Source of the DNA: Opitutaceae bacterium
Lineage (GTDB): Bacteria > Verrucomicrobiota > Verrucomicrobiia > Opitutales > Opitutaceae
DNA length: 64,000 nucleotides
NCBI GenBank assembly: GCA_030648295.1
Contig: JAUSID010000005.1
Span: forward strand, 1-64,000
Direction: 5' to 3'
The translations under genes and the position numbers were made by a program. Positions 6,228 to 10,215 of the stretch are shown one piece after another. The stretch's first letter is position 1. Every line of letters starts with the position of its first letter. Below the pieces are notes generated by a model. That model saw nothing but the letters and a program-made list of their open reading frames with translations. It had not been told where the DNA came from and did no database searches.

Positions 6228-7786
6228 AGGAGCGGATATTGATTTCCGGTCGCCAGCTTGGCGCGAATGAATTCGCCCGCCGCGCGAACGCTCGCGCCCG
6301 CGTCGAGGCCTGGGGCGGGCGTTGCTCGCACCAGGTGCTGCAATGCCCGCGCGTACGCTGAGCCGCTCAACCAGCGCGCACAGCCGCGTGGCCAGCGTGA
6401 AACGGCGAGCGTGCGACGCGCAGCCTGCTCGCGCCAGGCCGCAAGAAAGGGGTTCAACGCCGCGCAGGCGGCCCATGATTCCGCTGGCGGACGGGCCAGG
6501 ACCTCGAGCTGGGCCACCACGGTCAACCGGCTGAAGGGCACGCATCGTGGTGACGGCCCCGCCGCCAGGAACGGAGGTTGGGCGGCGAGCGCGCGGCAGG
6601 AGCGGGGAAGTTGCTGCCGCCACGCGCGCCAGCGGTTGCGCTGCCGCCGCCGTTCCGCGCCCGCGTCGAACAGCGAAAGGTCGACGTACAACTCGGAATA
6701 GGCATGAGGAAAACGGAAACCGAAACGCGCCAGATCCGGCACGATGTTCGGCAGCGTTCGGGCGAGCAGCGGTCGCTGTGCGGCCGCGGCCTCGAGATAC
6801 GGCAGCCCAAATCCCTCCTGCATCGATGTGAGCAGGACCGCTTCACTCGCGGCCACGAGGGACACGAGCGGGGGCTTCGACCACTCATCGCCTGCCAGCA
6901 TGCCCAGTCGCAGCCGCCAGCCATGATGTTGCGCCGCCGCCGCGAGGGCATCGGCATACGGCTGCTCGTCCGCGGACGTCACACCGCCGGTGGTGACGAG
7001 CCACGCTTCCGGTCGCAGCCAGCGCGCCAGCAGCAGCGCCTCCGCAATGTTTTTCCGGCGGAGCAGCCGGCATGGCATCAGCCACACGGGCGCGCCGTCA
7101 TCGAGTTGTTCGCTCAGCCAGCGGCGGGCGCGGCACACGTGTGCGGTGGCGGGAGTCGATCCGGCGTCCGCCAGATTCGGCACCCATGCCGCCTGCCGGC
7201 CGAGATGCCGCTCGAGTATCCGCGCGTCCGCCCGGTTGATCGCGGCGTGCCGTATGTTTGCTCCCATCGGGAGTACGGCGCGTGCCGCGGCGGCGAGGGT
7301 GCGGACGCCGGCCCGGCGCATTTCCGGCCATCGCGCCCAGCGGTTATCGAACCACCAGTCGTGGTGATGAAACACGAGCGTCACGCCCTGCGCGACACAC
7401 ACGCGGGCGAGCGCCCGGCTCACCAACACGTTTCGGCCGAGCCCCTGGTTGTGGGCCCACACCACACAATCGTCCACGGTTGAGCCCCGCAGGATTCGGG
7501 AAAGGTGCGCGGCGATGCGCCGCTCCACGTTGGCCGGGGCCCGATCGCGTTGCTCAGAAAAGTAGCCCAGCGCGGGATCGATGGCGCAGGCGACCCGCCG
7601 GCCGGGCACACCCTGCCGGAAATGGCGAAGCCAGGCCGCGTCGGGCGCCTCCCCGCCCACGAGCAGAATCTCGCCGAGGCGCGGACGCCAGGTGGCGGCG
7701 AGATGCGGCGTGGCGAGCTCGATCACGCGACGGACCCCGCCGGGGCGGAAATGGCTGTGGACGATGACGAGCTTCAAGCCTGGCAC
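6209..7786 (-). CDS. Glycosyltransferase, GT-B fold
   Basis: A protein of about 525 residues. It begins KLVIVHSHFRPGGVRRVIEL, a typical GT4 N-terminal strand with a GGV donor/acceptor loop, and carries the C-terminal E-x7-E motif in EGFGLPYLEAAAA. The open frame extends to 8110, but its first 108 residues are unlike the family and would overlap the divergent GT81-like gene. GTG at 7786 or TTG at 7777 is the likely start. It overlaps the HAD gene downstream and heads a leftward operon of GT, HAD and GT4. Unlike the GT4 at 3997, its donor and acceptor are not suggested by any recognised signature. Confidence 0.7.
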   Translation of the reverse strand: MPGLKLVIVHSHFRPGGVRRVIELATPHLAATWRPRLGEILLVGGEAPDAAWLRHFRQGVPGRRVACAIDPALGYFSEQRDRAPANVERRIAAHLSRILRGSTVDDCVVWAHNQGLGRNVLVSRALARVCVAQGVTLVFHHHDWWFDNRWARWPEMRRAGVRTLAAAARAVLPMGANIRHAAINRADARILERHLGRQAAWVPNLADAGSTPATAHVCRARRWLSEQLDDGAPVWLMPCRLLRRKNIAEALLLARWLRPEAWLVTTGGVTSADEQPYADALAAAAQHHGWRLRLGMLAGDEWSKPPLVSLVAASEAVLLTSMQEGFGLPYLEAAAAQRPLLARTLPNIVPDLARFGFRFPHAYSELYVDLSLFDAGAERRRQRNRWRAWRQQLPRSCRALAAQPPFLAAGPSPRCVPFSRLTVVAQLEVLARPPAESWAACAALNPFLAAWREQAARRTLAVSRWPRGCARWLSGSAYARALQHLVRATPAPGLDAGASVRAAGEFIRAKLATGNQYPLLWTPEP

Positions 7787-8075
7787 GGTGGCGCAAGGCA
7801 CGAGATCGCGCGAATCGATTTCGACGGTACCCGCGGTGCAGGGGGAGCCTGCGACGAACGCGATGATCCGCGTTCGCGTCCCGGCCGCAATCGTAGGCCC
7901 GGTGGGAATGCGGCTTGTCACTTCGACCGAGCCCGTGCTGCATGGGCGCGGTATCAGGCCAGTGAAGGCTGGCCCCCGGTACCAAGGGTCCGGCGCCAGG
8001 CGGCGCTGGAGGCAACACGAATGGCCGGGCCGCCATTCGACCACCAATGCGGCGTTTTTCCCGCTCCCTCCGCTC

Positions 8076-9287
8076 ATGTCTGACTTCTTCCAAACCGGCG
8101 CCATCGCCACGCTTCACCGGCTGGGTCACACCGACCTGGCCCGGCTCGAAAAGGATATTGCGGAATTCGTGCGGGAGACGCCGATCGCGCTCGTGCTGCC
8201 CTGCCACATCCGGGAAGTGGGGACGAAGGCGCTGCGGCTCATCGCGCGCGAATTGAAGAGCGTTTCGTATCTGAAGCAGATCGTCGTTGGCATCGACGGC
8301 GCCAACCTGCGCGGGTGGAAAAAGGCCCGCCGGTTCTTCAGCCAGCTGCCGCAAAAGCCCACGCTGCTGTGGAACGACGGCCCGCGCATGCAGCAGCTGT
8401 TCAAGAAGCTCGAGGCCACCGAACTCGGTGCCGGCGTGCCGGGCAAAGGTCGCAACGTGTGGGCCTGCTTCGGATACGTGCTCGCGAGCGAGCAGGTGCG
8501 GATGATCGCCGTGCACGATTGCGACATCACGACGTACAACCGCGAGTTGCTGGCGCGACTCTGCTACCCCGTGGCCCACCCGGCGCTGGGCTTCGATTTC
8601 TGCAAGGGTTACTACGCCCGCGTCACCGAGCGGCTCAACGGCCGGGTGATGCGCCTCCTCATCACGCCGTTGCTCCGCGCCTTCAAGAGCATCGTCGGCC
8701 AGCACTCATATCTGGTTTACATCGACACGTTCCGCTATCCGCTCGCGGGCGAGTTCGCGCTCGATCTCGATCTCGTCCGCCGGTTGCGCATCCCGTCCGA
8801 CTGGGCGCTGGAGGTGGGGCTGCTTTCCGAGGTGTATCGCAACTGCGCCCCGCGGGCCATCTGCCAGTCGGAGCTGTGCGACAACTATGACCACAAGCAC
8901 CAGGATTTGTCCGCCCGGGATCCGTCGCGCGGGTTGAACAAGATGGCCGCGGACATCACGGAGTCGTTCTTCCACCGCATGGCGGCCGAAGGCATCAAGC
9001 TCGATACCGGCGTTTTCGACACGCTGATGAGCGCCTACATGCGCCAGGCGGAGGATACGCTGCGCTTCTACGCCGCCGATGCCGCGCTCAACGGGCTGCG
9101 CTATCCGCGCCACGAGGAGGAAACCGCGGTCGCCACGTTCGTCCGCAGCATCCGGACGGCGACCAAGTCCTTCCTGGACGATCCGCTCGGCACCCCGCTG
9201 ATCTCGAACTGGAACCGGGTGGAGTCGGCGCTGCCGTCATTCCTGGACGAAATGCGGGAAGCGGTCCGGCTGGACAACGAGGTGTAG
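8076..9287 (+). CDS. Glucosyl-3-phosphoglycerate synthase-like glycosyltransferase (GT81-type)
   Basis: A GT-A fold enzyme of 403 residues. The donor-binding acidic motif is HDCDITTYNRE. Other segments are ALVLPCHIREVGTKALRLI at the first strand, PGKGRNVWACFGY, YPLAGEFALDLDLV and DWALEVGLLSEVYR, resembling bacterial glucosyl- or mannosyl-3-phosphoglycerate synthases. The known family reaction transfers a sugar from a nucleotide donor to 3-phosphoglycerate. ATG 8076 was chosen because homology starts at once and the longer frame runs through intergenic sequence. It diverges from a GT/HAD/GT4 operon with a 290-base gap that must hold both promoters. Together these suggest a compatible-solute pathway. 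Confidence 0.75.
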   Translation: MSDFFQTGAIATLHRLGHTDLARLEKDIAEFVRETPIALVLPCHIREVGTKALRLIARELKSVSYLKQIVVGIDGANLRGWKKARRFFSQLPQKPTLLWNDGPRMQQLFKKLEATELGAGVPGKGRNVWACFGYVLASEQVRMIAVHDCDITTYNRELLARLCYPVAHPALGFDFCKGYYARVTERLNGRVMRLLITPLLRAFKSIVGQHSYLVYIDTFRYPLAGEFALDLDLVRRLRIPSDWALEVGLLSEVYRNCAPRAICQSELCDNYDHKHQDLSARDPSRGLNKMAADITESFFHRMAAEGIKLDTGVFDTLMSAYMRQAEDTLRFYAADAALNGLRYPRHEEETAVATFVRSIRTATKSFLDDPLGTPLISNWNRVESALPSFLDEMREAVRLDNEV

Positions 9288-9344: not shown

Positions 9345-10061
9345 AATTCCGAAGCGGTGGCGCATTTTCTCGCCGATGCTCGCTTCCGGCGATGGCGCCT
9401 CCGGCTCGGGTTGTTTTTCCAAATCGGCCACGCTGCGGTGATGGCTCGTCTTCTCCATCGCCGCATAGACGGTGGTGCCCGTCGACTCGCCGGCCGGGGT
9501 CTGTTCGATTTTTTGCACCGCCGCTTCGCTATAGAAGCCACTGTCGGTGAGCACTGCGGCCACCGGGCCGGCCTCTGGCGCAATGGCGGCGACGCTGGGC
9601 ACCAGCTCCTGCTTGTCGTTGGGCGCCTGGCTGACGCGTTCGCCCACGATTAGACGGCTTTCCACCTCGACCGCGGCCTGCGTTCTGCTGGCCAGCAGAA
9701 TGTCGTGATCCGGGTGCGTGTCGGCGGTGAGCAGGCGCACCGCCACGTTGTCGAAGGTCGATTGCTCGATGCGCCGGGAACCGAAAACTCCGGTGGCGTA
9801 GCTGGAGACCAGCAGCGCCAGCAGCATCGCCGGCGCTCTGCTGGCCAGCAGAGTGCGCATCGCCCGTGCCGCGGGTGTTCACTTTGATTTGGCGCAGGTC
9901 GAGCTTCTCCACCGCGTCGATTAGAAAATGCACCAGGTGGTTGGCCGGCACCCAATCGCGCAGGTCCGGCGGCAGCCCCTCGGCTGGTGCTCGGGGCCCT
10001 GAGCTTGCCGAACGGGCAACAGAGCGGTGTCACGGTCGAGGTCGACAAAGCGGGTGGCCAT
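9345..10061 (-). pseudogene. Degraded IS1182-family transposase
   Basis: Several frames together encode pieces of a DUF772/DDE transposase of the IS1182 family. In order: MATRFVDLDRDTALL at the start (10061), WVPANHLVHFLIDAVEKLDL, LLALLVSSYATGVFGSRRIE, LLTADTHPDHD, then after a large deletion AAVEVESRLIVGERVSQAP, NDKQELVPSVAAI, VLTDSGFYSEAAV and EKMRHRF. The catalytic centre (about 150 residues expected) and the C-terminus are gone. Three short palindromes sit at the breaks: 9996-10017, 9836-9853 and 9683-9700. The first two break the frame, and the third marks the deletion joint. The product cannot be functional. Confidence 0.85.
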
Positions 10062-10129
10062 GCCGGTCAACAAGCAGTTCGTCCGCCAATCATGGATGTA
10101 TCTGCGAAAATGGCGCAGCCATTTTCATT

Positions 10130-10204
10130 TAGCAGCCTGTCGGTTCCGCCGGCCTCGCATTCGCTCGCCCAAAAATCGAATTTCCTAAGTCCGACAGGCT
10201 GCTA
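10130..10204. repeat. 75-bp hairpin element / IS terminal repeats
   Basis: A 14-base perfect inverted repeat, TAGCAGCCTGTCGG at 10130-10143 and CCGACAGGCTGCTA at 10191-10204, encloses 47 bases. It lies just upstream of the dead IS1182 transposase. The sequence CTAAGTCCGACAGGCTGCT is typical of IS1182-type ends. It may be the left end of the IS, or two IS ends joined by an internal deletion. Confidence 0.65.
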
Positions 10205-10215
10205 GTCCTTCCGCC

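Follow-up and report, generated by a model that had tools for sequence, protein, structure and literature searches.

According to PMC3733652, Opitutus terrae is rich in GTAG REPs, many of them inside genes, and Rickettsia palindromic elements (RPE) are palindromes that sit in frame within genes. REPINs, as characterized in PMC3116915, are RAYT-associated inverted REP doublets around a spacer, and small dispersed repeats of about 20 bp are described in PMC2884548 as possibly mobile. The palindrome described here bears on how REP-like repeats may spread when no transposase is obvious, and it offers eight sites at which filled and unfilled alleles can be aligned base by base. The alignments yield a rule for the edges (R...YG), a replaced segment whose ends pair, and a covarying outer pair. 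On this basis, different and testable predictions would follow for template switching, for a RAYT and for a dedicated enzyme.

The IS1182 remnant

The window, i.e., the whole 64,000-nucleotide stretch of the Opitutaceae contig that was analysed, carries the remnant of an IS1182-family transposase gene at 9354..10061 on the minus strand. It starts with an ATG at 10061, its catalytic middle is gone, and its C-terminus ends at 9354, the last homologous base. With NF033551 (IS1182 transposase, cut-off 270) the fragment gives a partial match of 54.6 bits. Two intact relatives occur in the same genome, L195 with an open frame of 456 codons and L197 with 470; L197 scores 327.3 bits, and it is by homology to this relative that the host gene belongs to IS1182. 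The 5' untranslated part and the left end of the element follow at 10062..10205 (minus strand) and include the inverted repeat TAGCAGCCTGTCGG at 10130-10143 and 10191-10204; several other copies stop at query positions 904-909, which correspond to 10203-10208 of the window.

Two 18-bp palindromes, neither assigned to a strand, lie within the gene: TTCTGCTGGCCAGCAGAA at 9683-9700, with a T/A outer pair, and CTCTGCTGGCCAGCAGAG at 9836-9853, with a C/G outer pair. Each is identical to its own reverse complement, so that both the perfect symmetry claimed in the preliminary description and its remark that the outer pair differs between the two copies while remaining complementary are borne out. At the first palindrome about 550 bp of the gene are absent relative to both L195 and L197 (552 between anchors in either case), and its right edge, CG, matches L195 but not L197. 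The second palindrome brings about a frameshift. A sister copy on contig C221 (L192) is 97% identical over the 351 bases leading up to this palindrome; at the site itself it continues with six further IS1182 bases, has no palindrome, and then departs from the IS. Aligned together, L192, L195 and L197 show an exchange of five IS1182 bases for eighteen, and none of the three has a palindrome at either place.

A third palindrome had been proposed at 9996-10017. This was ruled out, with only 4 of 11 possible pairs formed. Most of the interval falls in the last part of an inserted segment of 41 bp (9974..10014, no strand assigned), which is a clean insertion relative to L198, where it is absent. 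The insertion represents an unrelated, GC-rich dispersed repeat of about 41-50 bp with 21 other partial matches in genome G000, and it predates the 9836 palindrome because L192 has the insertion without that palindrome. Moreover, no core is found at the C-terminal breakpoint at 9354; the statement that palindromes mark each breakpoint was therefore too strong, although it holds for the five-base exchange at 9836 and the deletion of about 550 bp at 9683.

A further copy, L160 on contig C133, is 96% identical to the remnant over 527 bases and has both palindromes at the same 153-bp spacing. Its 9683-type palindrome keeps the same left flank, that of the IS1182 gene, and is followed on the right by one arm of another repeat, family A. 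Since the IS1182 gene is thus joined to a family A arm, unrelated sequences meet at the palindrome; the hybrid is taken as assembled, and its two parents share only about 20 bases at the junction.

Copy number and distribution

Both palindromes share a 16-base core, TCTGCTGGCCAGCAGA, and the full unit, N-TCTGCTGGCCAGCAGA-N', is an 18-bp perfect hairpin sequence. Within the window, the copies at 9683 and 9836 are the only matches to the core at up to two mismatches (dinucleotide-shuffle mean 0.01). Palindromes of at least 16 bp are common by chance, with a mean of 1.6 and a maximum of 5 in shuffled windows, and the non-chance feature is the repetition of one core, not palindromes per se. The genome-wide count suggested in the preliminary description reveals a strong enrichment: the 9.12-Mb genome from which the window comes holds 66 exact copies (reversed control 0) and 84 places at up to two mismatches (control 1). 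As in GTAG-REPs, these are many dispersed short hairpins, 66 copies of about 18-24 bp. The description had named two outcomes that would speak against it, intact relatives with the same palindromes in frame and a core that is not enriched. Neither was encountered, because L195, L197 and L192 lack the palindromes and the core is enriched. Overall, its reading of the features as scars of insertion or repair is largely right for two of the three, the 18-mers, and fails for the third; the two 18-mers are copies of a dispersed repeat rather than private repair products.

Beyond this genome the occurrence is patchy. The core was present in 3 of 38 genomes, the own one included (7 copies in G003 and 2 in G017), and, in a sample of 188 genomes from the class, in 3, again with the own one (7 copies in G128 and 1 in G099); all of these are Opitutaceae. 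A wider contig scan returned at least 99 stretches with the core, at least 74 from Verrucomicrobiota and at least 25 from other phyla. An assembly artefact is an unlikely source of the copies because they are present in many assemblies as well as in G128, which is a single contig. A text search for the core in several spellings matched no paper of the library searched, and the listings of literature on such repeats, taken as listings, contain no description of it.

Family A, which includes the arm in L160, holds 33 of the 66 own copies, and these may have spread together with the longer repeat. The family (e.g., L012, and L014 around 1501) is roughly 200 bp long with a central core and two side stems, and it often lies near contig ends.

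A scan of five core loci for RNA families matched only a tRNA and the nhaA-I riboswitch. The latter (RF03057, 46.9 bits, gathering threshold 37) lies at 7986-8038 of the window on the plus strand (L121:187-239), in the first part of a mechanical frame at 7581-9287. The product of this frame presumably resembles a glycosyltransferase with a later start.

The outer pair and the edge bases

The outer pair is Watson-Crick in all 66 own copies (49 TA, 11 CG, 6 GC). In other Verrucomicrobiota this is true of 71 of 75 copies, and of 29 out of 29 once look-alike flanks (60% over 20 bases) are removed. Copies from other phyla, used as a negative control with 24 usable of 25, have such a pair in 9 cases. 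The next bases outward follow a rule as well: a purine at -2 is combined with a pyrimidine at +2 in 65/66 own copies and 72/75 of those from other Verrucomicrobiota, compared with 10/24 in the other phyla. G003 and G017 follow both rules less closely, their copies having a Watson-Crick outer pair in 8 of 9 and the purine/pyrimidine combination in 6 of 9. Base pairing between -2 and +2 was considered and rejected; the types in the own copies (AT 37, AC 11, GC 10, GT 7, CC 1) look like independent choices of a purine and a pyrimidine. The edge rule is symmetric across the two strands.

Filled and unfilled alleles

At eight sites with clear unfilled homologues, a palindrome of 18-19 bp takes the place of 5-8 bases; seven of these palindromes have the core and one has a variant tip. 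The target duplication of a classical transposable element is not seen at any of the eight, and bases are lost instead.

The first site is in a TIR gene, where seven bases are swapped out in three own paralogues compared with 20 distinct unfilled copies. The alignment comprised 32 segments, of which four were themselves filled, four gave no information and four were duplicates, and these were left out of the count; the unfilled copies vary among themselves, and their common form was used. At a second TIR-gene site, a related palindrome with another tip replaces about seven bases. Fragments of TIR genes form a cluster on own contig C18 (7000-14000, L242), in which each of two related palindromes keeps a constant position while the tip of the second varies. 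The third site is tRNA-His on contig C96, where two palindrome-bearing fragments flank an intact tRNA-His and eight bases of the anticodon arm are swapped out. The 9836 palindrome of the IS1182 remnant, with five bases, is the fourth. At the fifth, a REP hairpin of G128, five bases are also replaced, as judged from one unfilled hairpin in a 160-kb sample; six of the seven G128 core copies share this one REP hairpin, which is part of a larger paired structure. The sixth site, L067 compared with L115, again involves five bases. At the seventh, a fragment of an IS1634 transposase (NF033559, below cut-off), six bases are exchanged by the 18-mer convention and all three homologues lack the core. 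The eighth, L070, has two unfilled homologues and likewise six bases swapped out. Other loci were less informative: for L120 and L092 no unfilled allele was clean, L109 found only itself among the matches listed, and a search of 29 genomes brought up no homologue that could be used for L010, L004, L166 and L186.

Each of the eight targets is already bordered, in its unfilled form, by a purine on the left and by YG on the right, a combination with a frequency of 0.094 at random junction pairs in a run that used a list of eleven typed sites, three of which have since been set aside. The first and last bases of the swapped segment are complementary in seven of the eight, for which random R...YG sites of the own genome give a frequency of 0.0006; Watson-Crick pairs in the swapped segments total 20 out of 32 (frequency 0.002 at such random sites), the IS1182 target in this test being a composite of two relatives. 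The sites were picked by the availability of homologues, eight is a small number, and the junctions were placed by visual inspection. Because its ends pair beyond what random R...YG sites do, the segment that is swapped out resembles a small hairpin's tip. The incoming outer pair mostly differs from the pair of the target; at the IS1634 site it is the same.

Two conserved genes were left out of the eight because their edges are ambiguous. In the HrpA gene (TIGR01967), the palindrome is absent from 14 of 15 aligned relatives, and the right edge of the swap is uncertain by about two bases. The exception is G017 (L221 on contig C182), which has a decayed palindrome, TCCGGCTCGCCAGCAGGA, at the orthologous site; this shared position suggests that the insertion is older than the split between the own genome and G017. 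The prolyl-tRNA synthetase gene (PF00587) has 27 unfilled homologues, and the alignment fits either a swap of 1-3 bases with a separate loss of six or a longer swap. As in RPE-bearing genes, both frames stay open, with a net gain of nine bases each, and the palindrome-derived peptides would be VLLASR in HrpA and SAGQQS in prolyl-tRNA synthetase. The palindrome is thus not a mark of gene death since it also lies in frame within open genes.

Possible modes of spread

The alignments document that the core is dispersed, that its outer pair is complementary, that the target loses bases and that the boundary bases already stand in the unfilled homologues. Taken together, these comparisons make it probable that we are dealing with a tiny repeat element, dispersed in Opitutaceae, whose copies arise by replacing hairpin-tip segments, and from them we infer spread by template switching or short gene-conversion tracts at such tips. 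The target, a segment of 5-8 bases at the eight clear sites, would be the tip of a small hairpin-capable stretch with a purine on its left and YG on its right. A strand stalled at the small hairpin could use a match of two to three bases at the edge to jump to another copy of the palindrome, would copy it and then return. If it came back far from where it had left, the deletion of about 550 bp at 9683 would result, and a strand that did not return to the same locus would leave a hybrid like that on contig C133. The IS1182 remnant may accordingly record two such events, with the 41-bp repeat inserted before the 9836 palindrome. A dedicated enzyme would, however, yield the same edges, and the comparisons as they stand do not separate copying from enzyme-driven transposition.

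The first alternative, which seems unlikely, is a REP-type element with the core as a REP loop variant, moved by a RAYT/Y1 (HUH) transposase as is thought for GTAG-REPs. The abundance of GTAG REPs in O. terrae, which PMC3733652 places within genes that include RNA helicases, fits this idea. So does G128, in which GTAG or GTGG lies within 16 bases of the core in 6 of 7 copies (shuffled mean 3.0) and one hairpin is common to six of the seven. Other Verrucomicrobiota have GTAG near the core in 14 of 75 copies (shuffled mean 6.2), or 5 of 29 non-redundant ones (2.4). This excess in G128 and some other genomes indicates that part of the copies travel inside REPs. The own genome, by contrast, lacks the GTAG-REP tag as a feature of the core: within 16 bases, GTAG occurs at 1 of 66 copies (shuffled mean 7.7) and GTAG or GTGG at 14 of 66 (16.4), with no excess in either case. 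Nor is a tag seen at the checked clear-site copies other than the G128 REP, or at HrpA and prolyl-tRNA synthetase. The own genome does have 11 Y1_Tnp matches, but the core, at up to two mismatches, is at none of these loci, with up to 1.5 kb searched per side and contig ends leaving five loci with fewer than 800 bases on one side; linkage to a RAYT flanked by the repeat was accordingly rejected within the available flanks. Furthermore, the target loses bases, and the REP hairpin of G128, in which five bases have given way to the core, is found in a core-free form as well.

Somewhat more doubtful still is a dedicated nuclease or recombinase that cuts at R...YG edges and installs the hairpin, with a small GIY-YIG gene beside the tRNA-His palindromes as the candidate. 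The strand symmetry of the edge rule would suit such an enzyme, and in four genomes (L151, L019, L074, L103) GIY-YIG genes (PF01541 match of the L151 gene, 1.2e-10) adjoin tRNA-His fragments that bear the palindrome; in L119, recorded as candidate division Kazan, a GIY-YIG gene lies 33 bases from a core. Yet only one of six own GIY-YIG genes is near a core (the other loci searched at up to three mismatches, L316 left out), another adjoins tRNA-Met with no core, and a tblastn search with the candidate protein detected no further GIY-YIG gene at the remaining core loci retrieved. With one in six, the gene was rejected as a general mobiliser.

The layout of these loci can be described separately. 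On own contig C96 (2704-4393, L151), the GIY-YIG gene adjoins an intact tRNA-His, which is flanked by two partial, palindrome-bearing tRNA-His copies, and L019, L074 and L103 have related layouts. The L119 frame (7359-7601) is 38% identical, and the core at 7634 has the outer pair and R/Y edges of the Verrucomicrobiota copies. The gene directly beside tRNA-Met is on own contig C267 near 98848 (L314), and the family is perhaps tRNA-linked.

It is very improbable that selection maintains the palindrome as a structural or protein-binding motif that is not itself mobile: its little decay (66 exact among 84 places at up to two mismatches) would agree with this, but it is found in a pseudogene, in tRNA fragments and in genes, each with unfilled homologues, and only in 3/38 and 3/188 genomes, the own one counted in both.

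The preferred reading remains a template switch, or a short conversion tract, at the tip of a hairpin. In its widest form, which is offered tentatively, the 18-bp palindrome would be among the smallest self-spreading DNA units, swapping for hairpin tips (R-N...N'-YG) in genes, tRNA copies and repeats with the help of a few edge bases and with no linked transposase, and its distant landings would delete or fuse genes. Such a unit shows a route by which short peptides can enter conserved proteins, and pseudogenes may be cut or fused at its copies.

Comparison with known systems

Among described repeats, the GTAG- and CGTC-tagged REPs, as presented in PMC3733652, resemble the core in being short hairpins with G.T stem pairs that lie within O. 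terrae genes and are in some cases nested in other palindromes. In contrast to those REPs as that text portrays them, the core shows no tag excess in its own genome, is a perfect palindrome whose 16-base centre is invariant and whose outer pair covaries, costs target bases, and was not found in the searched flanks of the Y1_Tnp loci. With REPINs it shares the form of a tiny, dispersed, non-autonomous hairpin unit, but whereas PMC3116915 defines these as doublets, the core occurs as single 18-bp hairpins, as seen in the copies at the first TIR site, the tRNA, HrpA and IS1634. The likeness to RPE lies in the in-frame palindromes within genes reported in PMC3733652. RPE are longer than the 18-bp palindrome and are not known to be related to it in sequence. 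Hairpin template-switch mutations, as presented in PMC8794818, can likewise create, in a single step, perfect stems whose pairs covary, but they copy local sequence, while the present core recurs across many loci. Small dispersed repeats resemble the core in size and, as described in PMC2884548, in possible mobility. The core is accordingly filed here as a new form of the small mobile palindromic repeats (REP/RPE/SDR).
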